From Acetobacteraceae bacterium (GTDB taxonomy: Bacteria; Pseudomonadota; Alphaproteobacteria; Acetobacterales; Acetobacteraceae): a DNA stretch of 64,000 bases. Where the stretch lies: positions 1 to 64,000 of the forward strand of contig PLSD01000048.1 in the NCBI GenBank assembly GCA_003164135.1, given 5' to 3'. Positions 35,579 through 55,808 of the stretch are shown here, in pieces. Numbering within the stretch: the first letter of the stretch is position 1; every line of letters starts with the position of its first letter. A program made the translations under genes and the position numbers. Below the pieces are notes generated by a model that saw nothing but the letters and a program-made list of their open reading frames with translations, had not been told where the DNA came from and made no database searches.

Positions 35579-35641
35579 CGCGTCATTCCAATTTCGAGTT
35601 CAAGCCTTAGAGCCGGATCGTACTCTAGGGACGACAGGTTG

Positions 35642-36709: not shown

Positions 36710-36787
36710 TTTCTTTATTCCTTAAAGCTTAGCCAAAGAAACGGCGCAGCACCAAACGCAAAGTCTGCCTGGCGCTGCGCCTTGGTC

Positions 36788-38140: not shown

Positions 38141-38171
38141 GGTTATTTCCTATTCGGACTTATCGTTATCG

Positions 38172-40012: not shown

Positions 40013-42823
40013 TTAATGCACTAGAAGCTTTAGGGAGCGGGCCTTGGCCAATGCCGCGGCGCGGTTTTTTACGCCCAGCTTGGCGTACAGGTTATACAGG
40101 TGCCATTTCACCGTCTGCACGGACACCCGCAACTGGTCGGCGATCTGCTGGTTGCTGGGGCCAGCCTCCAGAATAATCAGCATCTCGATTTCCCGGCGGG
40201 TCAGCGCCTCCGATTCGCAGACCTGCGCACCGCAAGCCGTTGCCGACTGCCCCACAACGGAGCCTGTCTTCTCGCAAACCAATTGGAAGAAACTGATCTG
40301 CTCACTCAGCGTCAGCGCCAGGTCTTTCAACCGCGCCACCTGCAACACATCTTTGAAATTCTTCTTATGTTGCAGGAACGGCTGCACCAACCCGCGCGAG
40401 GCAGCCAGAGTAATCGCTCGCGAAATTGAGCGTACCGCAAGTGATGGATCGTTCGCCAGCATGTGCAGCCGCGCAGCCGTCAAATGCAGTTCCACAACCT
40501 CGCGCCGGCGATCCAGCGCCGTCACCTGGCGCAACGCCTGTTCCGCCAGCTTCTGCGCGTTTCGCACCCGACCCTGCGCCGCCAGCAAGTCGATTTTCGC
40601 CAGCGAAATCGCCAGTGCCTCACTCGGCTGCCACTGCTCCTGCGCGGTATCGCCATCAATATCGGCCTGCTCCGCTAATTCAGCCGCGCGCGCGGTATCG
40701 CCCAACAGGCACAGACGCCGCACCACCGCCGCCACAAACATGCGGCGCAGGCGCGGCGGCCCGTCGCTGGCAATCGCGTCCAGCGCGGTAAAGCCCAGCG
40801 GCCCCGTCTCCTCGCCGTCCCAAAGCAAAACTGCCGCCTCCAGCCCATGGCGCGTGGTATCCACAAAACCATGGTTGGTCCCATGCGCCAGCGACGACCG
40901 CAGAATCTGCCGAGCCTCGTCCGAGCGGCCCAAATCACAAATCGCGCGCGCCTTCAGGCTCGCCAGCATCGCCACCATCCGCGTTTCCGGACCAATCATA
41001 TCGACGGCATTCTTATGCGCCGCCACCAGCACCTGTTCAGCGGCCAGTGGATTTCCTTGTTCCAGATCCAGCAACGCTTTGGTCGTCGCCATCCAGGCAT
41101 GGCTATGCTCACCATGAATATGGCTCACCGCCCCCTGCGCCATCTGGATATACCTGCGCATTTCGGGATAAGTCTGCGCCGGCAGCATGCTTGTGGCAGC
41201 CGCCAGCGCGGCGGTCACGGTATAAATCGGCGAGCGCACCTGCTCGGCCTGCAACCACTCCACCGCCCCGCGGCGCCCGGCCTCCATGTCATCGTTCACC
41301 ACGCAGAGCATCACGCGCAGCAGCGCCAGCCGCCGCGTCAGCTCACGCACTCCCGGCTCGTTGCCTGGCATCGCGTTCAGCCGCTTCTCCAAATTCACCG
41401 CACGCTGCTGCGCACGCACGCAACGGCGGCTAAAAGCCAGCGCCCAGGCATACCAGAATTCGGATTCGAGACCGATCTCAATCCCCAGTTCGGAAGCACG
41501 CCCCACCCAGCCCAGATACGTTACCAGATCACCACGATCCGAGACGATATTGCGCGCATGCGCATCCATGATCTCCCGCGCCAGCTCATGCGCCGGCGCC
41601 GCCAGCGCATAGTTGGCCGCATCCTCGGCGTGGCCATTTTCATGGCACCAGCGCGCGGCGCGTTCCAGCAGCAGCTTACGCCGCGCCGCCGGCACTTTCT
41701 TCGCCGCCTCCCCGAGTAAAAAGTCCCGAAACAACGCATGGAAACGGAACCAGGTATGGTGCCGGTCCAACGCAAGAATCAGCGCATTGCGGTGCACCAA
41801 ATACTCAATATATTCCGCCGCGCGCTCGTGCCCGGTCGCTGCAACCGCCAACTCCGCCGAGAATGTCTGCAAATAACTCAGGTCCAGCAGAAAGTTCACA
41901 AGGTCCGCGTCAAATCCCGCCAGCAGCCGCTTATTCAGCATCGCCGCCAGGTCAGCATCCGACCCCGTAAACCGGCGCAGCGCCCGCTCCGAATCCGGCT
42001 CCTCGGACATCACCGCCTGGATCAACCGGACCGCCGCGGGCCATCCCTCGGTCTTGTCCAAAATCAGATCAACCGTCTCCGGCCGCGTGTCCGCCAACCC
42101 GGCCTCGCGCAACAGGTCAGAAACCGCGCCGGCATCAAAACTTAAATCCTTGGCCCCCAGGTCGACAGCATTCAACTCTAGCCGCGCGCGGCCCTTGTCG
42201 AATGGAATCTCCGCGCTGCTCGCCAGCACCAGGCGCAATTTCGCCCCCGTAGTGAACACCAGCGTGTCGATAATTTTTGGCAATTCCGGATCGTTGCAAA
42301 AATGGAGATTATCCAGAAATAGGATGGGATTACCCAACGCCACCAGCTTCTTAATAATAACGTCCAGCCTGTTCCCAGCCTCGTCCTCATGCTCAGGCAA
42401 CAGATCCGGGGTTTCATCCGGCGCGCACAAATCCGCGGCCCGCTCCAGCAGGGCCAGCACTTTCTCCGCATCGCTATCTGAAGGGTCGAGCGACACCCAG
42501 ATGCACGTCCGCGCGCGCTCCGTCCACTCACGGTGCAGCCGCGTCAAAAACGTGGTTTTGCCATAGCCCGTGGGCGCCGAGACCGTCATCAGCTTGGGCA
42601 CGAACGGGCAGGTAATATGTTCGACGATGCGCGGCGTCGACACCAGCGCAAAACCATAGAACGGCGGCTCGAACTTGCCGACGCGCCGTTGCCGGAACGC
42701 GACGCCGTTATCCATCTCGGGGTCGCACAGAGCCTTGCCGCGCGCCGTGGGCCGCCCCGCCGGGCGTGACATAACCGGACGATCAACGCCAACCACTCCA
42801 GCACGCCGGACATAAGTGTTCAT
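40013..42823 (-). CDS. LAL-type (MalT-like) LuxR-family transcriptional activator
   Basis: A 936-aa regulator. The N-terminal NTPase has Walker A APTGYGKTT (residues ~84-91) and Walker B PILFLDNLHF. The middle is a long helical, TPR-like sensor. The last 65 residues form a LuxR HTH (LTRREIEMLIILEAGPSNQQIADQLRVSV...). The start at 42823 has GAGGGAA upstream; the frame is open further to 42916. It is divergent from the badI-like gene and follows the DUF1302 operon on the same strand. Proteins of this type activate catabolic operons in response to a small inducer. Confidence 0.9.
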   Translation of the reverse strand: MNTYVRRAGVVGVDRPVMSRPAGRPTARGKALCDPEMDNGVAFRQRRVGKFEPPFYGFALVSTPRIVEHITCPFVPKLMTVSAPTGYGKTTFLTRLHREWTERARTCIWVSLDPSDSDAEKVLALLERAADLCAPDETPDLLPEHEDEAGNRLDVIIKKLVALGNPILFLDNLHFCNDPELPKIIDTLVFTTGAKLRLVLASSAEIPFDKGRARLELNAVDLGAKDLSFDAGAVSDLLREAGLADTRPETVDLILDKTEGWPAAVRLIQAVMSEEPDSERALRRFTGSDADLAAMLNKRLLAGFDADLVNFLLDLSYLQTFSAELAVAATGHERAAEYIEYLVHRNALILALDRHHTWFRFHALFRDFLLGEAAKKVPAARRKLLLERAARWCHENGHAEDAANYALAAPAHELAREIMDAHARNIVSDRGDLVTYLGWVGRASELGIEIGLESEFWYAWALAFSRRCVRAQQRAVNLEKRLNAMPGNEPGVRELTRRLALLRVMLCVVNDDMEAGRRGAVEWLQAEQVRSPIYTVTAALAAATSMLPAQTYPEMRRYIQMAQGAVSHIHGEHSHAWMATTKALLDLEQGNPLAAEQVLVAAHKNAVDMIGPETRMVAMLASLKARAICDLGRSDEARQILRSSLAHGTNHGFVDTTRHGLEAAVLLWDGEETGPLGFTALDAIASDGPPRLRRMFVAAVVRRLCLLGDTARAAELAEQADIDGDTAQEQWQPSEALAISLAKIDLLAAQGRVRNAQKLAEQALRQVTALDRRREVVELHLTAARLHMLANDPSLAVRSISRAITLAASRGLVQPFLQHKKNFKDVLQVARLKDLALTLSEQISFFQLVCEKTGSVVGQSATACGAQVCESEALTRREIEMLIILEAGPSNQQIADQLRVSVQTVKWHLYNLYAKLGVKNRAAALAKARSLKLLVH

Positions 42824-43076
42824 GTTTGTCGTTCCCTCAATCAAGCTGGTCAGTGTTCTTATAGCCGCATCTGATCCGCCCAAAGAATTGCACAAAACGC
42901 ACCCCAACGTCCACACTAAAGTATGGGTTTGGAGGTTTGGCGACCAAAATGCCGAACTTTCGTTCAGTGCAAGGCGGTCCGTGCCGCGAGAGGAAGCATT
43001 TCCACGATGCTGTCCGAGGTTCGTGGGGCCGAGAACCCGGCAGGAACATCAATATTATAGCCCCCAGGGATATGCC
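42824..43076. promoter_or_regulatory. Divergent promoter region between LAL regulator and badI-like gene
   Basis: About 250 bp without a gene. No strong dyad was found by eye. The region should contain the target site of the LAL activator and the promoter of the badI-like gene, whose ATG at 43077 is preceded only by a weak AGGGA box. Confidence 0.4.
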
Positions 43077-43871
43077 ATGTCATCCAATTATAAAGATATT
43101 ATTTACGAAGTCCGCGACGACGCGGTGCAGATCATCATCAACCGCCCCGAGGTGATGAACGCCTTCCGCCTGCAGACGCTGGAAGAAATGATCGACGCCC
43201 TGAAGCGCGCCGATGAGGAAAAATCCGTCAACGCCGTGGTGCTCTCCGGCGCCGGCGACCGCGCCTTCTGCACCGGCGGCGACCAGAAAGTGCATCTCTC
43301 CGAGGACGGCCTCTACGGCCCCCGCGGCACCGTTGGCATGCCGGTCGAAGACATGCACAGCGCCCTGCGTGACCTGCGCAAAGTCTCCATCGCCAAGGTC
43401 CAGGGCTTCGCCATCGGCGGCGGCAACGTGTTCGCCACCATCTGCGACCTCACCATCGCCTCCGAGAAAGCCCAGTTCGGCCAGGTCGGCCCCAAAGTCG
43501 GCTCCGTCGACCCCGGTTTCGGCACCGCCTACCTCTCCCGCTTGGTCGGCGAGAAAAAAGCGCGTGAAATCTGGTTCCTCTGCCGCCGCTACCCGGCCGC
43601 CGAGGCGCTGCAGATGGGCCTGATCAACAAGGTCGTGCCGCATGAGGAACTCGACGCCGAAGTCGCCAAATGGTGCGCCGACATCAACCAGATGAGCCCC
43701 GGCGCCATCGCCATCGCCAAGCGTTCCTTCAACGCGGATTCCGAAAACATCCGCGGCATCGGCTTCCTCGGCATCCAGGCCGTCAAAGGCTTCTACATGA
43801 GCGAGGAATCCAAGGAAGGCGTGCGCGCGTTCAACGAACGCCGTAAGCCCGACTTCAAAAAATATTCCTAA
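43077..43871 (+). CDS. BadI-like 2-ketocyclohexanecarboxyl-CoA hydrolase (crotonase fold)
   Basis: A 264-aa crotonase-fold protein. FCTGGDQKVH (oxyanion hole) and IGGGNVFATICDLTIASEKAQFGQVGPKVGSVDPGFGTAYL (second oxyanion loop) closely match BadI and its relative DHNA-CoA synthase. EKKAREIWFLCRRY, IAKRSFNADSE and EESKEGVRAFNERRKPDF continue the match. BadI opens a 2-ketocyclohexane-1-carbonyl-CoA ring hydrolytically to pimelyl-CoA. No menaquinone genes are nearby, while a BadH-like SDR is in the adjoining operon, so the ring-cleaving role is preferred. Confidence 0.82.
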   Translation: MSSNYKDIIYEVRDDAVQIIINRPEVMNAFRLQTLEEMIDALKRADEEKSVNAVVLSGAGDRAFCTGGDQKVHLSEDGLYGPRGTVGMPVEDMHSALRDLRKVSIAKVQGFAIGGGNVFATICDLTIASEKAQFGQVGPKVGSVDPGFGTAYLSRLVGEKKAREIWFLCRRYPAAEALQMGLINKVVPHEELDAEVAKWCADINQMSPGAIAIAKRSFNADSENIRGIGFLGIQAVKGFYMSEESKEGVRAFNERRKPDFKKYS

Positions 43872-43965: not shown

Positions 43966-44766
43966 GTGGATTTTAGCGGCCTCACGGCATTCGAATGCAA
44001 ACTTGATGATGGACTCTTCCACATCACCCTCAACCGCCCCGACCAGGGTAACGTCTTCGGCACCGATTTCTGCAACGAAATCAACGTCATCGTCAGTGAG
44101 ATCAGCGAACGCCGCGACGTACGCGCCGTGCTCATCTCCTCCAAAGGCCGCTTCTTCAGCCTCGGCGGTGACATCACCTTGATGTCCGGCGACCGCGCCG
44201 CGCTACCTTTCATCGTAAAAAACCTCACCAGCCCGCTGCACATGGCCATCACCCGCCTGATGCTGATGAACGCCCCTGTCGTCTGCGCCGTCAACGGCCG
44301 CGGCGCCTTCGGCGGTGCCGCCGCACTCACCGCTTCGGCGGACATCGTCGTAGCCGGCCACGAAGCCAAATTTGGTTCCGCATTCACCGGCATCGGCTTC
44401 AGCTGCGACTCCGGCACCACCGTCGCCCTCTCGCACCGCATGGGCATTTCCCGCGCCAAGCGTTTCCTGCTCCTCGGCGAAACTCTGGACGCGCAACAAG
44501 CCCTCGCCGAAGGCCTGGTCGACAAGGTCGTGCCGGAAGAAGACCTGCAGACCGAAGCCCTGGCCATCGCCCGCAAGCTAGCTTCTGGCCCCACCAACGC
44601 TTTTGGCGAAATCAAGCGCCTGTTCGCGCATGTAAGCAGCCGCAGCGCCGCCAGCCAGATGGAAGAAGAAGCCATGGCCCTCGCCCGCGTCGCCCGCACC
44701 GAAGACGCCTGGGAAGGCATGACCTCCTTCCTGCAAAAACGCCCGGCGAAATTTACCGGGAACTAA
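43966..44766 (+). CDS. Enoyl-CoA hydratase/isomerase family protein (PaaG-like)
   Basis: Crotonase-fold protein, 266 aa, starting at GTG 43966 with AGGAGG 7 bases upstream. The oxyanion-hole motif is FFSLGGDI, and the substrate loop is NGRGAFGGAAALTASADIVVA. The two glutamates of true hydratases are absent: the first is alanine/leucine in GGAAAL, and the second region reads FTGIGFSCDSGTTVAL. The retained aspartate (C-D-S-G) matches the PaaG-type isomerase group. It probably shifts a double bond in a ring or chain acyl-CoA. Confidence 0.8.
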   Translation: MDFSGLTAFECKLDDGLFHITLNRPDQGNVFGTDFCNEINVIVSEISERRDVRAVLISSKGRFFSLGGDITLMSGDRAALPFIVKNLTSPLHMAITRLMLMNAPVVCAVNGRGAFGGAAALTASADIVVAGHEAKFGSAFTGIGFSCDSGTTVALSHRMGISRAKRFLLLGETLDAQQALAEGLVDKVVPEEDLQTEALAIARKLASGPTNAFGEIKRLFAHVSSRSAASQMEEEAMALARVARTEDAWEGMTSFLQKRPAKFTGN

Positions 44767-44832: not shown

Positions 44833-45642
44833 CTATTCGTCTGAATACTCCGGTGGCCGGCGTTCCTTGAACGCCGCCACCGCCTCATGGTGATCAGCCG
44901 TTTCCAACAGCATCACCTGCTGCCGATCCTCCAACGTCAGCGCCGCTTCAAGACTCGGCGCATCCACGGTCAGGTTCAGCGTTTCCTTGGTCATACGCAA
45001 CCCCATGGGCGAGGCCAGCAGCATCTCCCGCGCCATCGCCATCCCGGCCTCCAGCAGATCCGCCGCCGGCACCACATCGCTCACCAGCCCGCTCGCCAAA
45101 CTGCGCGCCGCGTCAATGAATTTCCCGGTCAGCAACAATTCCGAGGCCAGCGACAACCCAACCAACCGGGGCAGCATATACCCCGAGCCCATATCACAGC
45201 CGCCAACCCCCACGCGCAAATATGCCGCGTTCATCTTCCCCGCCGGGCCGGCAATACGCACATCCGCCGCCAGCGCCAGCGAGAATCCCGCCCCGCACGC
45301 CGCACCCTGCACCAACGCAATAATCGGCTGCGGCGCCGCGCGCATCAGTTTCGGCAATCCCGAATACAACCGCTGCATCGCCATCTGCCGCTGCGCCCGT
45401 CCCGCACCCGGCGGCGCAAACGCCACCGATGACAAATCCGCCCCGGCGCAAAACGCCCTGCCTTCACCACGCAATATCACCACGCGCACATCCAGGCGCT
45501 GCGGCAACGCGGCAAAATACTCCGTCAACTCCTCCGCCATTTCCGGCGAGACCGCATTGAGCGCATCCGGCCGGTTCAGCGAAAGAATTTCAATCCCGCC
45601 GCGTGTCTCCACGGCAATGCAATTAAAGCTCATATCAAACAT
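44833..45642 (-). CDS. Enoyl-CoA hydratase/isomerase family protein
   Basis: A 269-aa crotonase-fold protein with oxyanion motifs FCAGADLSS and VQGAACGAGFSLALAADVRIAG, followed by RVGVGGCDMGSGYMLPRLVG. The second catalytic glutamate is not evident (V-G-G-C-D-M), so it may be an isomerase or a ring hydratase rather than a standard straight-chain hydratase. It is the last gene of the monooxygenase operon, 75 bp after the alcohol dehydrogenase. Confidence 0.83.
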   Translation of the reverse strand: MFDMSFNCIAVETRGGIEILSLNRPDALNAVSPEMAEELTEYFAALPQRLDVRVVILRGEGRAFCAGADLSSVAFAPPGAGRAQRQMAMQRLYSGLPKLMRAAPQPIIALVQGAACGAGFSLALAADVRIAGPAGKMNAAYLRVGVGGCDMGSGYMLPRLVGLSLASELLLTGKFIDAARSLASGLVSDVVPAADLLEAGMAMAREMLLASPMGLRMTKETLNLTVDAPSLEAALTLEDRQQVMLLETADHHEAVAAFKERRPPEYSDE

Positions 45643-45717: not shown

Positions 45718-46824
45718 TCAGAACGTCAGCACCGCTTTAACGCACAGGCCGCGTTTCTGCTCATCCACCGCTTTGTTGATCTCGGCAAACGGATAGGTCT
45801 TGATCAATTTGTCGATCGGGAACTTGCCGGCCTTATACAAATCCACCAGCTGCGGAATGAACACTTCCGGATTGCTGTCACCCTCGATCACCGCCTTGAT
45901 GGTAATGGCGCTGCTCAGCGTCGCCATGATATTCAACGGCAGCGCCGCCGCCAGGTTGGACGGCACGCCGATCAACGCCAGTGTGCCGCGCATGCCCAGG
46001 CAACCCAGCGCCGCCTCCATCGCAGGAATTGCGCCAGACGTATCAACCGCGTTATTCACGCCTTCCGGCACAATTTCACGCGCCCGCGCCACCACATCCT
46101 CAGACTTCGGATCAATCACGTGCGTAGCACCCAACTCCAACCCCAGCGCGCGCCGTTCCGGCATCGGCTCCACCAGAATAATGGTCTTGCAGCCCTGCAC
46201 CACCGCGCCCATCACCGCGCTCAACCCCACCGGGCCGCCGCCAAACACCATAATGCTCGACCCCGCCTCGGCGCTAAGCGAACGCATCACCGCACCGGCG
46301 CCGGTCTGGAACCCGCAGCCAAGCGGCCCAAGGAACGTCAACGGCACATCATCGGCCACCTTAATCACATTTCGCTCATTGCCCAGCGCGTAGCTGGCAA
46401 AAGACGACTGCCCGAAGAAACACCCACTAATCGCGGCGCCCGTTCCACAAGCGCAGAGCGTATGCGAACCATCACCGCGCACCGGCGCATAATTCAGCGG
46501 CATGAAGTTAACGCAGTACGACGGAGATCCCTTCAAGCATTGCACGCATTTGCCACAAAAGTTGAAGGTCATGACCACGCGGTCACCCTTCTTGAACTTC
46601 GTCACCTTTGCGCCAACAGCCTCAACAATTCCAGCGCCCTCATGCCCCAGCACGCCCGGCAACGGAATCGGCAGCACGCCTTCGGCCGCCACAATGTCCG
46701 TATGGCACAAACCAACGGCAGCGATTTTTACCAGAATCTCATCCTCGCGCGGGGACTCAATTTCAACTTCCTCAACGCAGAACATCTGCGACGGGCTACG
46801 TGTCACGGCTGCGGTTATATGCAT
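45718..46824 (-). CDS. Zinc-dependent alcohol dehydrogenase (aryl/benzyl alcohol type)
   Basis: Medium-chain NAD alcohol dehydrogenase, 368 aa from the ATG at 46824, which has AGGAGGAG 7 bases upstream. Catalytic zinc ligands are the Cys of GLCHTD, the His of GHEGAG and the Cys of GCGFQTGAGAV. The structural zinc is held by the four Cys of CGKCVQCLKGSPSYC. The Rossmann motif is GGGPVGLSA, with an acidic residue (LVEPMPERR) selecting NAD. The layout resembles XylB/benzyl alcohol dehydrogenase, fitting oxidation of an alcohol made by the upstream XylM-like oxygenase to an aldehyde. Confidence 0.9.
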   Translation of the reverse strand: MHITAAVTRSPSQMFCVEEVEIESPREDEILVKIAAVGLCHTDIVAAEGVLPIPLPGVLGHEGAGIVEAVGAKVTKFKKGDRVVMTFNFCGKCVQCLKGSPSYCVNFMPLNYAPVRGDGSHTLCACGTGAAISGCFFGQSSFASYALGNERNVIKVADDVPLTFLGPLGCGFQTGAGAVMRSLSAEAGSSIMVFGGGPVGLSAVMGAVVQGCKTIILVEPMPERRALGLELGATHVIDPKSEDVVARAREIVPEGVNNAVDTSGAIPAMEAALGCLGMRGTLALIGVPSNLAAALPLNIMATLSSAITIKAVIEGDSNPEVFIPQLVDLYKAGKFPIDKLIKTYPFAEINKAVDEQKRGLCVKAVLTF

Positions 46825-46922
46825 GCTCAATCTCCTCCTGATTATGTTATCGTATAGACAATTCCCGCCGCACTATGGCGGATTTAACGGGAGTTAACCA
46901 TAGTTTCCCTGCGCCTCACCAC

Positions 46923-47348
46923 TCACCGCGCGCGCATTTTCTTCCAAATCCCCTCCGCCGTGGAAAGCAGCCGCCCGCCGCTCACGCACCGCCCGCGCAT
47001 AAACACCAGCGACTGCGTCTGGCTCTCAATCACCGGCTCAATTTCAATAAACTTGCCTGCCGTGGCACCGCCGATAAAATGCGAACCGAGTTGAATCGTT
47101 ACCAACCGCACTCCCGGATTGGCATCCGCGGCAGCAATCCCGAGCGCATGATCAAAAAACGCCAGCGACATTCCCCCATGCAACTGCCCATCGCGGTTCA
47201 GATGCTGCGCCGCGACTTCCAAACCAAACCGCAAGCCGCCGTCATCCCGCCTGGTCCACACCGGACCAATCAGCGCCATGAAACCACCCTCGCCATCGCG
47301 CTCCCAGCCCGCGGCGGCCGGATCAAACACCAAATCTGCGTCAGGCAT
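46923..47348 (-). CDS. Hotdog-fold thioesterase, PaaI family
   Basis: A 141-aa hotdog thioesterase with the core HLNRDGQLHGGMSLAFFDHALGIAA, including the catalytic-loop H-G-G-x-x-x-x-F-x-D motif, and a TIQLGSHFIGGATAGKFIEIE strand. It overlaps the CoA ligase stop by 1 bp. It probably hydrolyses dead-end CoA esters that would trap CoA during the pathway. Confidence 0.88.
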   Translation of the reverse strand: MPDADLVFDPAAAGWERDGEGGFMALIGPVWTRRDDGGLRFGLEVAAQHLNRDGQLHGGMSLAFFDHALGIAAADANPGVRLVTIQLGSHFIGGATAGKFIEIEPVIESQTQSLVFMRGRCVSGGRLLSTAEGIWKKMRAR

Positions 47349-48907
47349 CAGGCGACAGAGCGCTGCATATTAGCCCAATACGGCGCGCGAATATCCTTCT
47401 TGGAAATCTTGCCCGTGCCGGTCAGCGGAAACTCATCCACAAAGTCTATGCTCTTAGGCACTTTGTATCCCGCCAGATGCTGCCTGCAGAAATGCAGCAA
47501 ATCGTCATGACTCACGATCTTGCCAGCATGCAGCACCACCACCGCCTTCACCGCCTCGCCCCAACGCGCATCCGGCACGCCGATTACGGCAACAGACGCT
47601 ACCGCCGGGTGGATCGAGAGGACATTCTCCACCTCGGCGCAATAAATATTCTCTCCACCGCTGACAATCAAATCCTTCAGCCGGTCATAAATATAATACA
47701 ACCCGTCGGTATCCCGGTACGCCACATCGCCCGAGGCATACCAACCATCCTTGAAGCGCGCGTCTGTCTCCTCCGGCCGGTTCCAATACCCAGCCGATGC
47801 CGACGGCGCGCAAATCAACAACTCTCCCGGCGTGCCATCCGGCACATCGTTGCCCTGCTCGTCCACCACCCGCAAACGGATCAACGGCAACGGCCGGCCG
47901 CAGGATTTCAGCGTCTGCTCGACTTCCAGATTATGTTCATCGGGCCGCAACAGCGAAACCGGTCCGCTGGTCTCCGTCTGCCCATAAAACTGCATGAACT
48001 CGCACGGCATAATGCTCAGCGCGCGCTTGAGCAGCCCCAGCGAAATCGGCGACCCCGCGTACATTAACAGCTTCAGCGAACTGAAATTCGTCTTCGCCGC
48101 ATCGGGATGATCGATCAACAACTGGATCATCGTCGGCGTCAACACCAGCAGCGTCGGGTGTGACTGTTCGATCCCTGCCAAAAACTCCTGCGGATGGAAC
48201 TGCTTCTGAATGCACAACGCGACACCATTATAAAGGCATTGCAGCGACAACGCGACACCGAGCAAATGGAAGTTCGGCAGCGCGTATAAAAATACTTCGC
48301 CATCCTGCCAGTGGTAAGCCCGCTCAAAATGCTCCGAAAGCCGCGAATGGTTAAAGCTCGCATGGGTATGCAGCACACCCTTCGGCACGCCGGTGGTGCC
48401 CGAGGTATATAGCTGAATCACAGCGTCATCCTCACGCAAATTCAACTTCGGCAGCACCGCCGCATATCCCCCGCTCCACGCGGAAAGCCGCTGCGCATCG
48501 TCGATCACCACATACCCCGTGGTAATCCCCGCCTCCTTGCACACTTCCTGCCAAACTGCCTCAAACTCGCGCTCAACAATCGCAAACACCGGCGCCGCAT
48601 CAGCGCTAACCTGCGCCAGTTCCGGCGCCGCGAGCCGCCAGTTCAGCGGAATAAAACACGCCCCTGACCGCGCCGAACCAAACATTGCCAGAAAGAAATC
48701 CGCCGAGTTCTTGCCAAAAAACACCACCCGGTCCTGCGTCTTCACACCTTCCGCCAGCAGCGCATTGGCCACTCGCGCCGACTCAACCTCGAGCGCCGCA
48801 TAGTCATAACGCTGTTCACCATAGGTCATCGCCAGCTTATTTGGTGTACGGCGCGCATGATACGTCACCAGGTCGGCAAGAAAACGAATTTCAGGATACA
48901 CCCACAT
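47348..48907 (-). CDS. Acyl-CoA ligase (AMP-forming)
   Basis: A 519-aa adenylate-forming ligase with YTSGTTGVPKGVLHTHASF, FYGQTETSG, YASGDVAYRDTDGLYYIYDRLKDLIVSGGENIYCAEVE and the C-terminal lysine in GTGKISKKDIR. It lies 15 bp after the styrene-oxide-isomerase-like gene and overlaps the thioesterase gene. It should activate the carboxylate produced by the divergently encoded aldehyde dehydrogenase. The N-terminal HARRTPNKLAM block is typical of medium-chain and cyclic-acid ligases; exact substrate is unknown. Confidence 0.9.
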   Translation of the reverse strand: MWVYPEIRFLADLVTYHARRTPNKLAMTYGEQRYDYAALEVESARVANALLAEGVKTQDRVVFFGKNSADFFLAMFGSARSGACFIPLNWRLAAPELAQVSADAAPVFAIVEREFEAVWQEVCKEAGITTGYVVIDDAQRLSAWSGGYAAVLPKLNLREDDAVIQLYTSGTTGVPKGVLHTHASFNHSRLSEHFERAYHWQDGEVFLYALPNFHLLGVALSLQCLYNGVALCIQKQFHPQEFLAGIEQSHPTLLVLTPTMIQLLIDHPDAAKTNFSSLKLLMYAGSPISLGLLKRALSIMPCEFMQFYGQTETSGPVSLLRPDEHNLEVEQTLKSCGRPLPLIRLRVVDEQGNDVPDGTPGELLICAPSASAGYWNRPEETDARFKDGWYASGDVAYRDTDGLYYIYDRLKDLIVSGGENIYCAEVENVLSIHPAVASVAVIGVPDARWGEAVKAVVVLHAGKIVSHDDLLHFCRQHLAGYKVPKSIDFVDEFPLTGTGKISKKDIRAPYWANMQRSVA

Positions 48908-48922
48908 CTATCAGACTTCCCT

Positions 48923-49402
48923 TTAGCCCGGCCGGAACGCCTGGCGCGCAATCATCACAAAAGCCACGATGGCTACAACAACAAACACCAGCGCCGGCAG
49001 CAACCCGATCACCGCAATCACACTCGTCGGCCCAAGCCGGTTGGCTCCGAACGTCAGCGCCTGATTGGGACTAACCAACGAGGCCCAATAGAAAACCGTA
49101 TTCGCCCAGCCCGTACCGGTCAGCATCAAGCCTAAATTGCGGCTGGTTTTCAGCGGAAAATTCAACACCGGCAGCATCAGCGCGACCACGATCATCAAGA
49201 TCGCATTCAGCATCCCGCCCAGATGCGCCGCCGTCCACCCCGGCACCGAGCCGAACAGCGCAATGGGGATAATCTTCCCCGGAAACACCTCAACCCCGCC
49301 AACGGCACTAACCAGCAAGCCCACACCGGCAACAAAGCCAATTAGCATGATCAGCGCCGCATGACCCATCAGGCGGCGCTGCACAAAATTCATCGTTTTC
49401 AC
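48923..49402 (-). CDS. Styrene-oxide-isomerase-like (StyC family) membrane protein
   Basis: A 159-aa protein with four hydrophobic helices. It matches the recalled pattern of StyC over its length: RRLMGHAAL, GVGLLVSAVGG, the A-H-x-G-x-x-L-N block (AAHLGGMLN), LPVL-F, G-x-A-N-x-x-F-Y and SPNQALTFGANRLGP. Residues aligned with the StyC heme-ligand histidine and its active-site partners are all kept: H60, N66 and Y105, each shifted +2 from H58, N64 and Y103. StyC rearranges epoxides to aldehydes using ferric heme b as Lewis acid. It overlaps the preceding membrane gene by 4 bp. No styrene monooxygenase genes are present. Confidence 0.82.
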   Translation of the reverse strand: MKTMNFVQRRLMGHAALIMLIGFVAGVGLLVSAVGGVEVFPGKIIPIALFGSVPGWTAAHLGGMLNAILMIVVALMLPVLNFPLKTSRNLGLMLTGTGWANTVFYWASLVSPNQALTFGANRLGPTSVIAVIGLLPALVFVVVAIVAFVMIARQAFRPG

Positions 49403-50148
49403 GCCACGGCCTTAACGCCGCCGGCATAACGCCCGGCGCCTGGTTCCCGCAGCTTCAATCGGTACGATGCCTCAACCGCCATGTACCAGCCCATCGTAAT
49501 CATCCAAACAAAGAAGGTCGTGAACCCGATCCAAAATGTGATGAGCCCGTTCCACGCCACCGGGCCGGAGGTGTAAAAAGGCAATGCCGTGATGGGGATA
49601 AAGCTCAACCCTGTCAGAATCGCCCACCAGCTTACCCAGGCAGGGAACACTTTGCGTTCGCCCTTATCAAGCAACCCGACAATCCCGACCAAAATGGCCT
49701 GCACCGTCGTGCCCATATAGGTGATGTTGAACATGATAAACGTGCAATCGTTCAAAGTACGCAGTGTATTCGGGTCGATATCGGTGCGGAACGCCGCCGC
49801 CGCCCAAAGAGCCGGACAAAACACGACAACCCAAGTGGTCAAAATCCCGCCAATAAGCGCCGAAATCGTCAAAATCGGGTTCGCCCCTTCAATCCGCCAC
49901 ATCACCAGCGCCATCTGCGCGCTCCAGGTCCCGTACAAAACCCCGACGAACGCCGCCATGGATTCACCGAACAAGATCGAGCTGTGATATTGGATATAGA
50001 ATGCGGCCAAATCGGCCGGGCTCAGTTGGGGCGAGGCGGGGGGAATATTATGACCAAAATACCCCCAAAATATGCCGTATAAAATTGCAAACGCAACACC
50101 GCTGAACCCCGCGGCCCACTGCCATTTCAAGCTGGCTTTATCCGACAT
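49399..50148 (-). CDS. Six-helix membrane protein, function unknown (paralogue B)
   Basis: A 249-aa integral membrane protein with about six hydrophobic segments and shared blocks with its neighbour at 50249: SLKWQW, YFGHN-PP, SSILFG, WRIEG-P, IGGILT-WVVVFCP, FRTDIDPNTLR, NITYMGTT, and FPAWVSWWAILTG-SFIPIT. The start at 50148 (MSDKASLKW) matches the paralogue; the frame runs 5 codons further upstream. No family was recognised. It lies in the operon between the AlkB-like oxygenase and the StyC-like isomerase, so an accessory, substrate-channelling or transport role is possible. Confidence 0.78.
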   Translation of the reverse strand: MSDKASLKWQWAAGFSGVAFAILYGIFWGYFGHNIPPASPQLSPADLAAFYIQYHSSILFGESMAAFVGVLYGTWSAQMALVMWRIEGANPILTISALIGGILTTWVVVFCPALWAAAAFRTDIDPNTLRTLNDCTFIMFNITYMGTTVQAILVGIVGLLDKGERKVFPAWVSWWAILTGLSFIPITALPFYTSGPVAWNGLITFWIGFTTFFVWMITMGWYMAVEASYRLKLREPGAGRYAGGVKAVA

Positions 50149-50187
50149 CCGCACACCCTCCATTTTATGGCCGCCTAGTAAAGCTGA

Positions 50188-50248: not shown

Positions 50249-50956
50249 TCACGCCGCCTTCAACTTGCGCCACACATCCGCACTCATGCACCAGCTCATG
50301 GTCACAATCCACACAAAATACGTCGCGAACCACGCCCAGAAATTCATCGACCCATTCCAGGACCACGGGCCAGATTTGAAGAACGGGTCCAGCGTGATGG
50401 GAATGAAGCTGATACCAGCCAGAATCGCCACCCAACTAACCCAGCGCGGAAACAACGGATGCTCGCTCTTGTCCGCCAGCCCGACGATCCCTACCGCCAC
50501 CGCCTGCAAAGTTGTGCCCATGTAGGTGATATTGAACATCAAATAGCCCAGATCATTCAACGCGCGCAGCGTGTTGGCGTCGATATCCGTGCGGTACGCG
50601 CAGGTCACCCAGATCGAGGGGCAGAACACCACAACCCACGCGGTGAGAATCCCGCCAATCAACTGAATCCACGTCAGCACCGGGCTCTTGCCCTCAATGC
50701 GCAGCATCACCACGGTCAGCTGCGCCGTCCATGGCACCCACAAAATCCCGAAAAACGCCGCCAGGGTCTGGCCAAACAGAATCGAGCTGCCGTTGGCATG
50801 GTAGAACGCCGCCAGATCATTCGCACTCAGCGCCGCCGAAACCGGCGGCAGATTATGCCCGAAATAACCAAAGAAAATCGTATAGAAAAACACAAAGCCA
50901 ATACCACTGGCAGAGGCAATCCACTGCCATTTCAGGCTGGTTCTGTCCGACATCAT
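50249..50956 (-). CDS. Six-helix membrane protein, function unknown (paralogue A)
   Basis: A 235-aa integral membrane protein with about six hydrophobic segments (for example IASASGIGFVFFYTIFFGYF, TLAAFFGILWVPWTAQLTVV, LIGGILTAWVVVFC, YLMFNITYMGTTLQAVAVG). Conserved charged or polar spots between helices include YRTDIDANTLRALND. It is clearly paralogous to the next gene. The start could be the first or second Met (MMSDRTSLKW). It is the second gene of the AlkB-like operon. No function assigned. Confidence 0.78.
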   Translation of the reverse strand: MMSDRTSLKWQWIASASGIGFVFFYTIFFGYFGHNLPPVSAALSANDLAAFYHANGSSILFGQTLAAFFGILWVPWTAQLTVVMLRIEGKSPVLTWIQLIGGILTAWVVVFCPSIWVTCAYRTDIDANTLRALNDLGYLMFNITYMGTTLQAVAVGIVGLADKSEHPLFPRWVSWVAILAGISFIPITLDPFFKSGPWSWNGSMNFWAWFATYFVWIVTMSWCMSADVWRKLKAA

Positions 50957-51039: not shown

Positions 51040-52161
51040 TTACGCAGCCTGCGCCTGTCCCGCACCGCGCGCCGCCGACGCATCGTCAAACCAATCCGGC
51101 CAGCCCGCCGCCAGATTCTGAGCCCGCGCCAGCTTGCGTTCCTCGGCGGTGGCAAACTCCAAATCCCAGCGTTTCAGCGCGGGCTTGGCGATCACATTGG
51201 TCCACACCGGCGGGATCAACGCCGCGAGGAAGCAGATGAACACGTTCGGCATGGTAATCGCCGTCATGTCCGGGGTCAGCTTGTAATACGCCAAATAAGA
51301 GTCGAGATGGTGATCGGCATGGTTGGTAATTTCCCAACCCATGCGGCGCGTCAGCCAGCCCATGTGGTTCCACACATGCCGCTTGGCAATCGGCGCGCCT
51401 TCAACCCGCACCAGCCCGTAATGCTGGAAGTAATTGAAGCACTCCACCCAGCAACGCGCCACGACCATACCCGCGAGCACGACCGCAACCGCTTCAAAAC
51501 CACCAATCAGATAAACAATGGTCTGGAAAATCACCTGCGCCAAAATGGCCTTGTACAACCGATGCCCGATCGACCAGCGCCCCTTGCCGCGCTTCTCCAG
51601 CGCATCGCTCTCCACCCCCCAGGCCTCAAGCGAGCTTTGCACCACCGCGTTCACGGTAAAGGCATAAAGGCTCACCCCGCGCCGCGACGTATCGCCATCC
51701 TTGCGTGTCGCCACATCAATATGGTGGCCGACGACATGCGCAATCTCACGCGTGGAATCGAGGTAGCAAATCTGCGCATACCGGCCGACAAAGCGGCGCA
51801 GCGCCCCGCGCTGGTGGTACAATTCATGCGCCGCCGGCACCAGCGGCACCACCGAGAGCCAGGCGCAGCTGAGGATCGTCCCGGCAATCTGCACGCCGTC
51901 CAACGTCCCCTGCCCCACGCGCCAGGCGGCGGCCAAATACAGCAGCGGGGCCAGAATGGTGTAAATCCACACCGGCAGATTGGCCCAAAAATGGCTGGTC
52001 ATTTTGCGCGTCGCCATATCATTCGGCAAAATCGAATCCACCACCGCGAATATGGGGAAACTGGCGATACCGATGAACACCCAGTCGCCACCCAGGTAAA
52101 ACCCATAAGCGGTCAACAGCTGAACAACGATAGCAACGTAATAACTGGCATATTCCAGCAT
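51040..52161 (-). CDS. AlkB/XylM-type membrane di-iron monooxygenase
   Basis: Integral-membrane non-heme di-iron hydroxylase, 373 aa from the ATG at 52161 (ribosome site AGGGAG; an open extension to 52302 looks non-coding). The histidine boxes are HELYH (112-116), HVVGHH (142-147), NYFQHYGL (243-250) and NHADHH (280-285), with multiple helices between. The arrangement resembles XylM and AlkB, which hydroxylate methyl groups and can epoxidise alkenes. Electrons probably come from the reductase at 54021-55082. It heads the operon that continues to 44833. Confidence 0.92.
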
Positions 52162-52579
52162 GGACTTATAACTCCCTAAAGCGTTTCCAAAGTTCCAGCC
52201 TGCAAGGAGAGCGCATCCGCCACGACCCAAAGCCAGAAACGCCGCCCCAAACCACAGGAACGAAGAACCCGGCCAAGCCGCCAAAAACCCAATGCAACCC
52301 AATCACTGAAAGCTGAACGTTAACTTATTTTTATCGTCTACCAGTCGACAATATTCTTTTCCGCGCAAACCCGCAAGTTATAAAATCCCGCGCCAGGTTA
52401 TTTTTCCGCGCATCCCCCGCTTGGCCCTTGAACCCGCCCGCACCCGCCTCTATTCTGTCAACCAACAGTCGAACAATATCCGCTACAACCGTAAAAATTA
52501 CCGCGTCACCAGCATAAAGTCTGGGTTGCGCCGGCCTGTTCCCGGCTCAATTGCGGCCAACCAAAAGGAGGACAATCAC
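52162..52579. promoter_or_regulatory. Divergent control region between the monooxygenase and aldehyde dehydrogenase operons
   Basis: A 418-bp gap containing two related elements, AGTCGACAATATTC (52343-52356) and AGTCGAACAATATCC (52467-52481), each preceded by a GTC(T/A)ACC motif. They are placed so that each could control one of the divergent operons. They are candidate sites for the TetR protein encoded at 55101. No gene is supportable; the open frame upstream of the aldehyde dehydrogenase has poor coding character. Confidence 0.5.
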
Positions 52580-54007
52580 ATGACAACCGCCGCCGCCCCC
52601 GAAATTGCCCGCATGCACGCATTGCTGCAAACGCAAAAACAAGCCAGCCTCAAGCACGGCATCCTCACCGCCGACGAGCGCATTGACTGGCTGAACCGCC
52701 TCATCGGCATGCTGGTCGACAACAAGGACGAAATCGTCGACGCCATCTCCCAGGATTTCGGCAGCCGCACCCGCGAGCTCACCCTGGTGGCAGACGTCCT
52801 GGGCAGCATCAATGAACTCAAATTCGCCCGCGACAACCTGACCAAATGGATGCAGCCGGAAGAACACGCCGGCATGTTCCCGGACGCCGAAGCCCGCGTT
52901 GACTATGTGCCGCTCGGCGTGGTCGGCATGCTCAGCCCCTGGAACTTCCCGGTCAACCTCACCTTCGCCCCGCTGGCCGGCATCGTCGCCGCGGGCAACC
53001 GCTGCATCATCAAACCCTCGGAACTCACCCCCGCCACCTCCGCCCTCATCGCCCGCATGATCAGCGGCGCCTTCCAGGAGAGTGAAATCGCGGTCGTCCT
53101 CGGCGGCCCGGATGTCGCGGCGGAATTCTCCACCCTGGCGTTTGACCATTTGCTTTACACCGGCAGCACCGCGGTCGGCCGCCACGTCATGCGCGCGGCC
53201 GCCGCCAACCTGGTCCCGGTCACCCTGGAACTCGGCGGCAAATCTCCGGTCATTGTCTCGCAATGCCACTCGGTGGAAGACGCCGCCGCCCGCATCATGA
53301 CCATCAAAACCCTCAACGCCGGCCAAATCTGCCTGGCGCCGGACTACGTCTTCGTGCCCGAGCAGTCGCTGGAACGCTTCATCACCGCCGCCACCACAGC
53401 GGTCGGCAACATGTTCCCCACCCTGGCGAACAACCCGGGCTACACCGCCATCATCAACGAGCGCCACTTCGCCCGCCTGCAGGGCTACCTGTCCGATGCC
53501 AAGGAACGCGGCGCCCGCATCGTCGAAATCAACCCGGCGAACGAGGATTTCTCCTCGCAGAACGTGCACCGCCTGCCGCCCACCCTGGTCATCAAGCCGG
53601 CCGAGGACTCCAAGATCATGCAGGAGGAAATTTTCGGTCCCCTGCTGCCCGTGCTCACCTACCGCAACCTCAAAGAGGCCATCGACTTCGTGAACAAGCG
53701 CGACCGGCCCCTGGCCCTGTACTTCTTCGGCCAGGACCCTTCCGAGGAACACGAAGTCCTCTCAAAGACCATCTCCGGCGGCGTCACGGTGAACGACTGC
53801 ATGACCCACGCCTTCTCGGAGACGATGCCCTTCGGCGGCGTCGGCGCTTCCGGCATGGGCGCGTATCATGGCGAGGCCGGCTTCCGCACCTTCTCCCACG
53901 CCCGCGCGGTCTACCGTCAGTGCCGCGCGATCGAGGCTGAATACGCGCTGCGCCCCCCCTATGGCGAGCCGATGCAGCAGTACCTCGCCGCCATGATCAC
54001 GCGATAA
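52580..54007 (+). CDS. Aldehyde dehydrogenase (coniferyl/benzaldehyde type)
   Basis: NAD(P) aldehyde dehydrogenase, 475 aa, starting at ATG 52580 after a strong GGAGG. PWNFPVNLTFAPL is the cofactor-binding block, LELGGKSP holds the general base glutamate, and NAGQICLAPDY holds the catalytic cysteine. The C-terminal NDCMTHAFSETMPFGGVGASGMGAYHGEAGFRTFSH matches the coniferyl aldehyde dehydrogenase group. It should oxidise the aldehyde made by the alcohol dehydrogenase or the StyC-like isomerase. It is followed 13 bp later by the reductase gene. Confidence 0.93.
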   Translation: MTTAAAPEIARMHALLQTQKQASLKHGILTADERIDWLNRLIGMLVDNKDEIVDAISQDFGSRTRELTLVADVLGSINELKFARDNLTKWMQPEEHAGMFPDAEARVDYVPLGVVGMLSPWNFPVNLTFAPLAGIVAAGNRCIIKPSELTPATSALIARMISGAFQESEIAVVLGGPDVAAEFSTLAFDHLLYTGSTAVGRHVMRAAAANLVPVTLELGGKSPVIVSQCHSVEDAAARIMTIKTLNAGQICLAPDYVFVPEQSLERFITAATTAVGNMFPTLANNPGYTAIINERHFARLQGYLSDAKERGARIVEINPANEDFSSQNVHRLPPTLVIKPAEDSKIMQEEIFGPLLPVLTYRNLKEAIDFVNKRDRPLALYFFGQDPSEEHEVLSKTISGGVTVNDCMTHAFSETMPFGGVGASGMGAYHGEAGFRTFSHARAVYRQCRAIEAEYALRPPYGEPMQQYLAAMITR

Positions 54008-54020
54008 GGCTTATCCAATA

Positions 54021-55082
54021 ATGTCTGGTTTTTTCAAAAAACTGTTCTCCGGTTCGGCGCCCCATGTTGCCCACGTCAACCCCTGGGGTGCTGAGTTCCC
54101 GGTCGGCTCAAGCCAGACATTGCTGGAAGCCGCCCTCGCCAACAAAATCCCCTTCCCGCACAACTGCACGGTCGGCACTTGCGGTTCCTGCAAGTGCCGG
54201 CTGACCTCGGGCAAGGTCTCCGCCATCACCGATTTCGGCTACACCCTCTCGCGCGAGGAGCTGGCCGCCGGCTACATCCTCGCCTGCCAGGCGCAGCTCA
54301 AATCCCCCATCACCGTGGAGGTGGAAACCGCCGGCGACAATCTGCCCGAACCGGAAGCCTACACCGGCCAGATCACCAGCCAGCAGCCCCTTACGCATGA
54401 CATCCTCGCCGTCACCGTCGAGATCGACCGCGCCATGCCCTATGTCGCCGGGCAGTACGCCAGCCTCTCCCTGCCGGGTCTGGCAGGACGCTCCTATTCC
54501 TTCGCCACCGCGCCGGACCGCAGCGGGCGGCGCGAGCTTACCTTCTACATCCGCAAAATCCCCGGCGGCGCCTTCACCGAAAAACTTTTTGCCGGCACCC
54601 TGCAAAACACCACGCTCGAAGTCACCGGTCCGCACGGCCATTTCTTCCTGCGCGCGGGTGAAGGCCCGATTATCTGCATGGCCGGCGGCAGCGGCCTCGC
54701 GCCTCTGCTCAGCCTGTTGCAGGACGCCCGCAAAAACCGCCTGCGCCGCCGCTGCGTGCTGCTATTCGGCGCGCGCACCCAAGCCGACCTCTACGCGCTG
54801 GACCAGATCGAGGAAATCAAAAGCACCTGGCAAGACGAATTCACTTTCCTCCCCGTGCTCAGCGACGAACCCTCCGACAGCGGCTGGACCGGACGGCGCG
54901 GCTTTTTCACCAGCATGCTCCCGGAGTTCATTCCCGCCGCGGAGGCGGCGCAAACCCAAGCGTATATGTGCGGCCCGCCGCCGATGATCGACGCCGCCGT
55001 CACCGCGCTCACATCACGTGGCTTGCCGCTGGAAGCCATCCATTATGACAAATTCACCGATTCCAGCCATGCTGCCCATTAA
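54021..55082 (+). CDS. XylA-like ferredoxin-NAD(P)H reductase of the monooxygenase
   Basis: A 353-aa electron-transfer protein with three modules. The N-terminal plant-type [2Fe-2S] domain has Cys in HNCTVGTCGSCKCRL and ILACQA. The FAD domain has GRSYSFATAP, and the NAD domain has GGSGLAPLLSLL and the terminal MCGPPPMIDAA. This is the order found in XylA and related oxygenase reductases. It is co-transcribed with the aldehyde dehydrogenase and is the only such reductase in the window. It is the obvious partner of the AlkB/XylM-type enzyme. Confidence 0.92.
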   Translation: MSGFFKKLFSGSAPHVAHVNPWGAEFPVGSSQTLLEAALANKIPFPHNCTVGTCGSCKCRLTSGKVSAITDFGYTLSREELAAGYILACQAQLKSPITVEVETAGDNLPEPEAYTGQITSQQPLTHDILAVTVEIDRAMPYVAGQYASLSLPGLAGRSYSFATAPDRSGRRELTFYIRKIPGGAFTEKLFAGTLQNTTLEVTGPHGHFFLRAGEGPIICMAGGSGLAPLLSLLQDARKNRLRRRCVLLFGARTQADLYALDQIEEIKSTWQDEFTFLPVLSDEPSDSGWTGRRGFFTSMLPEFIPAAEAAQTQAYMCGPPPMIDAAVTALTSRGLPLEAIHYDKFTDSSHAAH

Positions 55083-55100: not shown

Positions 55101-55808
55101 ATGAGTACCGAGGGCCTACCGACAGAGACCCGCAAACCGGCAACCCCGCCGGCCGCCGCCGCCCCGCCTAAGCGCGGGCGCGGCCGGCCCTCGCACGCCG
55201 TCCCCTCGGAACTCTACGCCGCCCGCCGCGAGGAAATCCTGGGCGCGGCGCGCAACGTATTTGTACAAAAAGGCTACGCCAACGCCTCGCTGGACGACGT
55301 CGCCCGCGAAACGGGCCTCAGCAAACCCTCGCTATATTACTACTTCCCCTCGAAGGCGCATCTGTTCTTCGAGCTCGCCGCCCAACGCGCCGACGAACAA
55401 CTCGTCCGCCTCGCCAAAATCGCCGAGGAGCCAGACCCCTACGAATGCCTGGTCCAGCTAATGCGCCACCAGGTCAGCCAGGTCACCGGCGAAATGGATT
55501 TCTACCGCTATTTTTTCGACCACCAGCCGACCCTGGACGACAAGCAGCTGCGCGCTGCCCTGGCCAAAAAACTCGCGGTCTATTCAGGATATTTCTACAA
55601 AAGCATCAGCCGCGCCATCGCCGCCGGCGTGCTGCCGCCGATCGACGAATTCGTCGCCACCCAGGCTATCTTCGGCGCCACCTTCTGGATCTACAAATGG
55701 TTCGACGCATCCCGCTTCAATGCCGATGACGTCCTCGACCAACTGCTGCTGATGATCGGCGTCACCCCCGCCGCCAAAGCCCGCCAACTCCGCCAAACTT
55801 CAGGCTAG
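55101..55808 (+). CDS. TetR-family transcriptional regulator
   Basis: A 235-aa TetR regulator with an HTH at residues ~60-95 (LDDVARETGLSKPSLYYYFPSKAHLF) preceded by a basic AT-hook-like PKRGRGRPS stretch. It closes the aldehyde dehydrogenase-reductase operon, 18 bp after the reductase. It therefore probably controls the divergent pair of operons at 52162-52579. The gene end overlaps the convergent hypothetical gene by 4 bp. Confidence 0.88.
   Translation: MSTEGLPTETRKPATPPAAAAPPKRGRGRPSHAVPSELYAARREEILGAARNVFVQKGYANASLDDVARETGLSKPSLYYYFPSKAHLFFELAAQRADEQLVRLAKIAEEPDPYECLVQLMRHQVSQVTGEMDFYRYFFDHQPTLDDKQLRAALAKKLAVYSGYFYKSISRAIAAGVLPPIDEFVATQAIFGATFWIYKWFDASRFNADDVLDQLLLMIGVTPAAKARQLRQTSG

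Follow-up and report, generated by a model that had tools for sequence, protein, structure and literature searches.

The 159-aa protein encoded at 48923-49402 on the minus strand of the window (the whole 64,000-nt stretch of Acetobacteraceae bacterium DNA analysed here) is genuinely homologous to styrene oxide isomerase (SOI), and it belongs to a group of SOIs that is tied to one subfamily of XylM-type monooxygenases. Paired with an oxygenase of its own and found in a terpene-type alicyclic setting, this group is a real, new variant of a family otherwise known as a styrene enzyme and much used in biocatalysis. Our main reading, to which we give a probability of about 0.6, is that the window protein is a heme-dependent SOI acting with a XylM/XylA partner on an alicyclic, terpene-like alkene. 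In the titles and abstract beginnings that we could search of the open-access literature, we found no description of the SOI-XylM pairing. The genes of the island are as follows.

28910-29614, minus: TetR-family regulator, putative edge of the island
30075-31007, minus: beta-keto acid cleavage enzyme (BKACE; PF05853, E 7.5e-108)
31031-32311, minus: acetyl-CoA hydrolase/CoA-transferase family protein
32318-33076, minus: short-chain dehydrogenase (SDR), candidate BadH-type ring-hydroxyacyl-CoA dehydrogenase
33140-35578, minus: AmeD-like RND transporter
35642-36709, minus: AmeC-like YCF48/BNR protein
36788-38140, minus: AmeB-like protein (DUF1329)
38172-39869, minus: AmeA-like protein (DUF1302)
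40013-42916, minus: MalT/LuxR-type regulator, with 33-35% relatives at L033, L034, L036, L037 and L038
43077-43871, plus: BadI-like 2-ketocycloalkanecarboxyl-CoA hydrolase, putatively ring-opening (the longest ORF starts at 42816)
43966-44766, plus: enoyl-CoA hydratase/isomerase family protein (ECH2), with relatives at several XylM-SOI loci
44833-45642, minus: enoyl-CoA hydratase/isomerase family protein (ECH3)
45718-46830, minus: zinc alcohol dehydrogenase, XylB-like, 47% to the alcohol dehydrogenase that follows xylM on pWW53
46923-47348, minus: hotdog thioesterase (4HBT)
47348-48907, minus: acyl-CoA ligase (AMP-binding), adjoining the SOI gene
48923-49402, minus: SOI-family (StyC-like) membrane epoxide isomerase, 159 aa, assigned by homology, residues, tree and model
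49399-50163, minus: MEMa, integral membrane protein not assigned to any family; related genes occur in XylM-SOI genomes
50249-50956, minus: MEMb, integral membrane protein of no named family, 61% to MEMa
51040-52302, minus: XylM-type di-iron membrane monooxygenase (FA_desaturase; likely true start at the internal Met, ATG 52161)
52421-54007, plus: aldehyde dehydrogenase (Aldedh), divergent from the xylM operon (likely start ATG 52580, 475 aa)
54021-55082, plus: XylA-type ferredoxin/NADH reductase (Fer2, FAD and NAD domains), likely electron donor of XylM
55101-55808, plus: TetR-family regulator after xylA, the other edge of the island

The isomerase and its place in the SOI family

The isomerase gene starts with GTG and overlaps the end of its upstream neighbour by a few bases. 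In a phmmer search of the PDB, only two molecules match the protein at E<=10, 8PNU/8PNV (E 1.3e-31, 113 bits, residues 6-157) and 30TW (E 1.6e-25), both of which are styrene oxide isomerases. Pfam reports no domain at E<=1, and the NCBIfam StyC model NF045734 gives 149.9 bits, short of its cut-off of 150 by 0.1. The AlphaFold2 model, built from 43 sequences (pLDDT 89.9), has four long helices at 6-34, 53-80, 84-110 and 128-155. Aligned with 8PNU chain A, it reaches TM 0.90/0.93 and an rmsd of 1.6 Å at 41% identity, and 8PNU is its sole structural match at E<=0.001. An earlier note on this DNA had described a 159-aa, four-helix, StyC-like protein and had proposed structure prediction and superposition on StyC as a check; homology and model both bear the description out. 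A chance resemblance of the three residues that the note had compared is ruled out by the E-value of 1.3e-31 together with the fold match. We find no other SOI-family gene in the window's own genome, and none in four sampled genomes of the same bacterial family.

Those three residues, H60, N66 and Y105, had been equated with His58, Asn64 and Tyr103 of SOI, and all three align as claimed. With residue numbers transferred from 8PNU through alignments, the window SOI keeps the equivalents of His58, Asn64, Asn99 and Tyr103 as His60, Asn66, Asn101 and Tyr105, and it has Gly22 for Thr20, Thr97 for Asp95 and Gln114 for Arg112. Arg112 of SOI is a proposed propionate contact. Among 99 non-identical SOI-family sequences, the window's included, His58 and Asn64 are conserved in 99/99, Tyr103 in 98/99 and Arg112 in 94/99; Gln at the Arg112 position is found just in the window and in Acidocella aquatica. 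The Asp95 position is Thr in 16/16 XylM-linked SOIs and in 0/6 StyA-linked SOIs, of which four have Asp and two Ala, and Thr also appears there in some unlinked relatives such as L050. In SOI, His58 is reported to be the axial heme ligand and Tyr103 a hydrogen-bond donor to the ligand, with Asn64, Asp95 and Asn99 sharing a network with Tyr103 (PMC11374702). In the Rhodococcus enzyme RoSOI1, heme and activity are reported lost in H57A, and whole-cell activity retained in the alanine variants of D94 and R111, with R111A showing several-fold lower membrane activity and weakened heme retention (PMC12502698). Since the D94 alanine variant stayed active, Thr97 is not necessarily incompatible with activity in the window SOI; Gln114 may weaken heme binding, because R111A membranes were several-fold weaker.

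We scanned 84,980 species genomes for SOIs and examined the best 80 of 112 confirmed loci, many of which end at contig ends, so that a missing neighbour may sit beyond. The nearest SOI to the window's among these 80 is that of Acidocella aquatica (92%, same gene order), which makes an Acidocella-like alphaproteobacterium the most probable source of the window. A first tree leaves out L029; a second leaves out L011, L018 and L029 and has 44 rows, 29 from the StyC/XylM side and 15 selected from an outer clade. In the 44-row tree the StyA-linked SOIs form one clade (99/98) with the window SOI outside, and forcing the window SOI among the StyAB-linked StyCs is rejected with p-AU 0.000312, for a StyC group defined after the first tree had been inspected. 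This result places the window SOI outside the StyC clade, a question that the earlier note had left to a profile search. Filing the window SOI as a StyC is ruled out by the tree, its profile score lying just under the cut-off; the NF045734 cut-off itself does not part StyC from XylM-linked SOIs, because two XylM-linked Zavarzinia SOIs pass it (163.2 and 159.4 bits). Among labelled rows, the XylM-linked SOIs occupy one side of a branch with support 68/84 in the 44-row tree and 93/86 in the first tree, which is moderate overall.

A third SOI-like clade, mostly marine, has different neighbours. Many of its proteins have Phe at the Asn99 position. The 60 loci L050-L111 without L054 and L055 belong mostly to this clade, and in 43 of them a PF10118 gene lies directly upstream on the same strand at less than 300 bp, where the PF10118 assignment ("predicted metal-dependent hydrolase") comes from a Pfam run on the L060 gene (8970-9917; SOI at 10001). 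This gene may encode the oxygenase of the marine SOI-like clade or some partner protein. Two SOI-like loci, L099 and L102, are in MAGs titled Klebsiella pneumoniae; the tree groups them with the marine-type clade, and the titles are probably wrong. Upstream of the SOI gene of Maribacter vaceletii (Bacteroidota; L048:10001-10483) are genes for a CoA ligase and an aldehyde dehydrogenase; immediately downstream is one for a NAD_binding_8 protein that may be a further oxygenase.

A XylM-type oxygenase partner

The window XylM is 42% identical to its pWW53 namesake and 64% identical to the product of a gene on a Sphingopyxis plasmid, and the window XylA has 39% to the 2Fe-2S protein beside xylM on pWW53. 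In the pWW53 record xylM alone is so named and the remaining Xyl names are ours; we take the 2Fe-2S protein to be XylA and the downstream alcohol dehydrogenase to be XylB. The earlier note had listed an AlkB/XylM-type oxygenase, a CoA ligase and hydratase genes as neighbours. The ligase and the hydratases are there, and the oxygenase is nearest to XylM. AlkB proper is ruled out for it: AlkB structures are more distant, and the nearest named genes are XylM. The proposal that this di-iron enzyme is the source of the epoxide is supported as likely, xylene monooxygenase having been reported to epoxidise styrene (PMC5874493).

A XylM gene with at least 54% identity lies within 5 kb of the SOI in 15 of the 18 closest loci (L032-L049) and in 0/62 of the remaining loci among the best 80 of 112, where there is one 25% match (L084). 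Eight of these 15 loci (L033, L034, L036, L037, L038, L040, L041 and L043) have xylM as the immediate upstream neighbour of the SOI gene. The order aldehyde dehydrogenase-xylM-SOI-xylA is found in Burkholderia sp. OK233, two Paraburkholderia and Dyella, and XylB-like dehydrogenase-xylM-SOI-xylA in Rhodoferax and a Burkholderiales MAG. In the XylM tree, the 17 SOI-linked rows all fall in one 22-row clade (100/100), the other five rows of which are unlinked; near the 21 rows outside that clade we see no SOI, within flanks of mostly about 1.5 kb and, for plasmids, the whole record. SOI and XylM distances correlate (Mantel r 0.82, 16 pairs, 0/5000 permutations), a correlation that could come partly from shared host descent. 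At E<=1e-60, XylM is found in 4/385 genomes of the window's class, with an SOI nearby in three (the window's own genome G000, G169 and G266). In the class of Burkholderia OK233 it is found in 7/369 genomes, and just two of these, OK233 and G493, reach at least 58%. The OK233 XylM adjoins an SOI; the G493 cluster (XylM 60%, XylA, ligase, acyl-CoA dehydrogenase) has none within the 16 kb examined. A 57-residue stretch of a short ORF in the OK233 island (L127:8730-9209) matches XylM at 63%, and the ORF is perhaps the remnant of a second XylM copy.

The window's own genome (137 contigs; listed completeness 100%, contamination 5.43%) has 0 matches at E<=1 to the StyA-type domain PF17885, in agreement with the earlier statement that no StyAB is present, and 0 at E<=1 to PaaA (TIGR02156). 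This absence is not general in XylM-SOI genomes, because StyA is found in 4/15 of the others and PaaA in 10/15; PaaA is missing from 6/16 when the window's own genome is counted. Zavarzinia aquatilis has PaaK, StyD, StyA, StyB and StyC together on a single contig (L054), and its XylM-SOI is on another (L041). That one genome holds StyABC and XylM-SOI apart argues for different substrates.

Ring-opening genes and other members of the island

The product of 43077-43871 is, from its sequence, a putative BadI-like hydrolase that we do not class as BadI: TIGR03210 (BadI, 2-ketocyclohexanecarboxyl-CoA hydrolase) is its best model with 410 bits, below the cut-off of 467.6, and two MenB models come next with 326 and 313 bits. 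Of the 16 XylM-SOI genomes, 14 have a BadI-family gene scoring at least 390 bits; Dyella and one Nevskia MAG do not. As background, one is found at E<=1e-100 in 32/289 genomes of the window's class, a number that includes three XylM-SOI genomes and leaves 29/286 others. The comparison of 14/16 with 29/286 gives a Fisher p of 1.7e-11 that ignores kinship and is indicative only; the background covers the window's class (Alphaproteobacteria), and the XylM-SOI genomes come from several classes and are in many cases large. Of 14 control genomes, one has BadI at E<=1e-100 and six at E<=1e-60, none over the cut-off. For the three close SOI loci without XylM, two score 265 and 244 bits and one has no match. 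In 9/16 genomes, with the contig verified from its content or length, the BadI-like gene is on the same contig within 50 kb of the SOI (the window, L032, L034, L036, L037, L038, L039, L041 and L049), and in L033 probably so. In Burkholderia sp. OK233, aldehyde dehydrogenase, XylM, SOI, XylA and an acyl-CoA dehydrogenase stand in that order, with an SDR and a BadI-like gene 11 kb away.

The SDR, CoA-transferase and BKACE recur with BadI-like genes in Zavarzinia (L132; 85, 61 and 86%, in that order), in Sphingopyxis (L116; 83, 58 and 87%) and in Burkholderia (57, 39 and 73%). Beyond the LuxR-type regulator, the DUF1302, DUF1329, YCF48-type and RND genes stand in AmeABCD order at 33140-39869; for the RND gene the best NCBIfam model is HAE3, with 131.5 bits against a cut-off of 351.9. 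Among the flanks examined, relatives of AmeA-D occur just in those of A. aquatica, L033, L037 and Zavarzinia. In Castellaniella, AmeABCD is reported to give monoterpene tolerance (PMC6394551), and ring opening of perillyl-CoA is proposed to be the work of BadH/I/K relatives (PMC4109377). The alicyclic or terpene-type setting that the earlier note had suggested is strengthened by the BadI-like gene, by the BKACE, CoA-transferase and SDR genes, by the AmeABCD-like cassette and by the linkage to XylM in 15 other loci.

The best NCBIfam model of the aldehyde dehydrogenase is MdlD (322 bits, cut-off 550), and its identity to the pWW53 benzaldehyde dehydrogenase and to StyD is 27-29%. Relatives of the acyl-CoA ligase (45-47%) stand beside the SOI in L042, L045, L046, L047 and L049. 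MEMa and MEMb have no Pfam match over the cut-off, no NCBIfam match and no PDB sequence better than E 0.11, and a MEM model (pLDDT 83.7) has no PDB fold match at E<=0.001. MEM relatives occur in the XylM-SOI genomes L032, L033, L037, L042, L045, L049 and L132. A COX3-family gene follows the MEM genes in L033 and L132. A KAS-III/OB-fold gene of Zavarzinia has a relative (38%) in the window's own genome, on another contig. The window island has no acyl-CoA dehydrogenase.

Proposed pathway, alternatives and known systems

In the pathway that we propose, XylMA would convert the alkene of an alicyclic, terpene-like hydrocarbon into an epoxide within the membrane. Heme b is the Lewis acid in SOI, and here ferric heme b on His60, at the trimer interface, would play this part, with Tyr105 positioning the epoxide oxygen. 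The epoxide ring would open, and a 1,2-shift would give an aldehyde (a Meinwald rearrangement). The divergently encoded aldehyde dehydrogenase would then produce the acid and the neighbouring ligase its CoA ester, and beta-oxidation-type steps with the SDR and the BadI-like hydrolase would open the ring. What the analysis shows is the homology, the fold, the conserved residues, the recurrent gene linkage and the lack of a StyA or PaaA match in this genome; the heme, the activity, the order of the steps and the alicyclic substrate we infer. The window SOI probably performs the same chemistry as StyC on a different, non-styrene substrate, because it adjoins a xylene-type oxygenase and alicyclic ring-opening genes; as for the epoxide, an exocyclic methylene or isopropenyl epoxide is our guess. 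More tentatively, at slightly less than even odds, XylM-SOI may be a dedicated membrane module that turns alicyclic terpene alkenes into aldehydes and feeds a BadI-type ring opening. The acyl-CoA dehydrogenase after xylA in OK233 is suggestive, as it fits an acid saturated next to the carboxyl; the Meinwald product of an exocyclic alkene would be such an acid, and perillate would not.

Two observations count against a main-line role of the isomerase: the XylB-like alcohol dehydrogenase in the island, and the two related XylM clusters without SOI, on the Sphingopyxis plasmid (no SOI at E<=1e-5 on L116, which has XylM, XylA, BadI-like, SDR and BKACE genes plus a cytochrome P450 and a rubredoxin) and in G493 (none within 16 kb). 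Also weighing against the main reading are the Gln at Arg112, the StyA and PaaA genes of other XylM-SOI genomes, the restriction of AmeA-D relatives to a few flanks, the BadI-type genes in 29/286 other genomes of the class and the lack of an acyl-CoA dehydrogenase in the island. Methyl hydroxylation needs no SOI, and the XylB-like dehydrogenase means that the island also fits methyl hydroxylation. XylM, the XylB-like enzyme (47%) and the aldehyde dehydrogenase could thus oxidise a ring methyl in the manner of limonene to perillate, with the SOI as a side branch or detoxifier that returns XylM-made epoxides to the aldehyde pool; the perillate route proposed for Castellaniella uses BadH/I/K relatives (PMC4109377). 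We consider this rather unlikely, at about one chance in five, and the most probable of the three alternatives. Four loci with aldehyde dehydrogenase, XylM, SOI and XylA (L034, L036, L038 and L040) have no XylB-like gene within 20 kb, and the close adjacency and co-divergence of xylM and SOI suggest a main-line role for the isomerase.

A vinyl-arene pathway for styrene or alpha-methylstyrene, with XylMA in place of StyAB and the epoxide passing through SOI to an arylacetaldehyde and an arylacetic acid, is still less probable. It would agree with the reported epoxidation of styrene by xylene monooxygenase (PMC5874493), with the StyD-like dehydrogenase (47%) that adjoins xylM in the Burkholderia, Paraburkholderia and Dyella loci, and with PaaA in 10/15 of the other XylM-SOI genomes. 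The window's own genome is, however, among the 6/16 in which PaaA is not found, Zavarzinia aquatilis has a separate StyABC, and we know of no role for BadI-like, BKACE or AmeABCD-like genes in phenylacetate catabolism. It is very improbable that the SOI fold has been kept in Acidocella and its activity lost or changed with the Gln for Arg112. The restriction of Gln114 to the window and A. aquatica among 99 sequences, and the weaker heme retention and membrane activity of R111A in RoSOI1, would be consistent with such a loss, but whole cells of R111A are reported to remain active (PMC12502698), and the gene and the gene order are intact in two Acidocella-type genomes at 92% identity.

If an SOI acting with XylM/XylA on a terpene-like alkene is the correct reading, the natural chemistry of SOI widens to the alkene-to-aldehyde conversion of alicyclic compounds, and a catabolic route is added in which the family has a natural function beyond styrene. 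The island would supply concrete candidate genes for aerobic terpene degradation, a field in which a 2014 review counts only three monoterpene pathways as completely known at the gene and enzyme level (PMC4097962). Because the xylM-SOI pair recurs, named hosts such as Paraburkholderia madseniana and Zavarzinia aquatilis lend themselves to direct tests of this idea.

Four known systems resemble parts of the island. The xylene monooxygenase system of the TOL-type plasmid pWW53 shares XylM (42%), XylA (39%) and a XylB-like enzyme (47%) with the window; the gene order on pWW53 is aldehyde dehydrogenase-xylM-2Fe-2S reductase-alcohol dehydrogenase. Unlike pWW53, the window has a XylM of a separate subclade (100/100), an added SOI, a CoA ligase and ring-opening genes, and an aldehyde dehydrogenase only 27% identical to its pWW53 counterpart. 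The monoterpene island of Castellaniella defragrans, as far as the available accounts describe it, has a BadI-type hydrolase, a dehydrogenase candidate and the AmeABCD order in common with the window, a likeness of family and gene order only; it differs in its oxygen-independent limonene dehydrogenase, and those accounts name no SOI. The Sphingopyxis macrogoltabida plasmid (L116) is close in XylM (64%), BKACE (87%), SDR (83%), CoA-transferase (58%) and the BadI-like protein (57%), and its aldehyde dehydrogenase has 28% identity to that of the window and 38% to StyD. From StyC (Pseudomonas sp. VLB120, 8PNU/8PNV; Rhodococcus opacus 1CP) the window SOI differs in its position outside the StyAB-linked clade, its XylM-type partner, its Thr for Asp95 and its Gln for Arg112, and its genome differs from StyC systems in that no StyA or PaaA was found. 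The two nevertheless have in common the fold, the length, the four helices and the equivalents of His58, Asn64, Asn99 and Tyr103.
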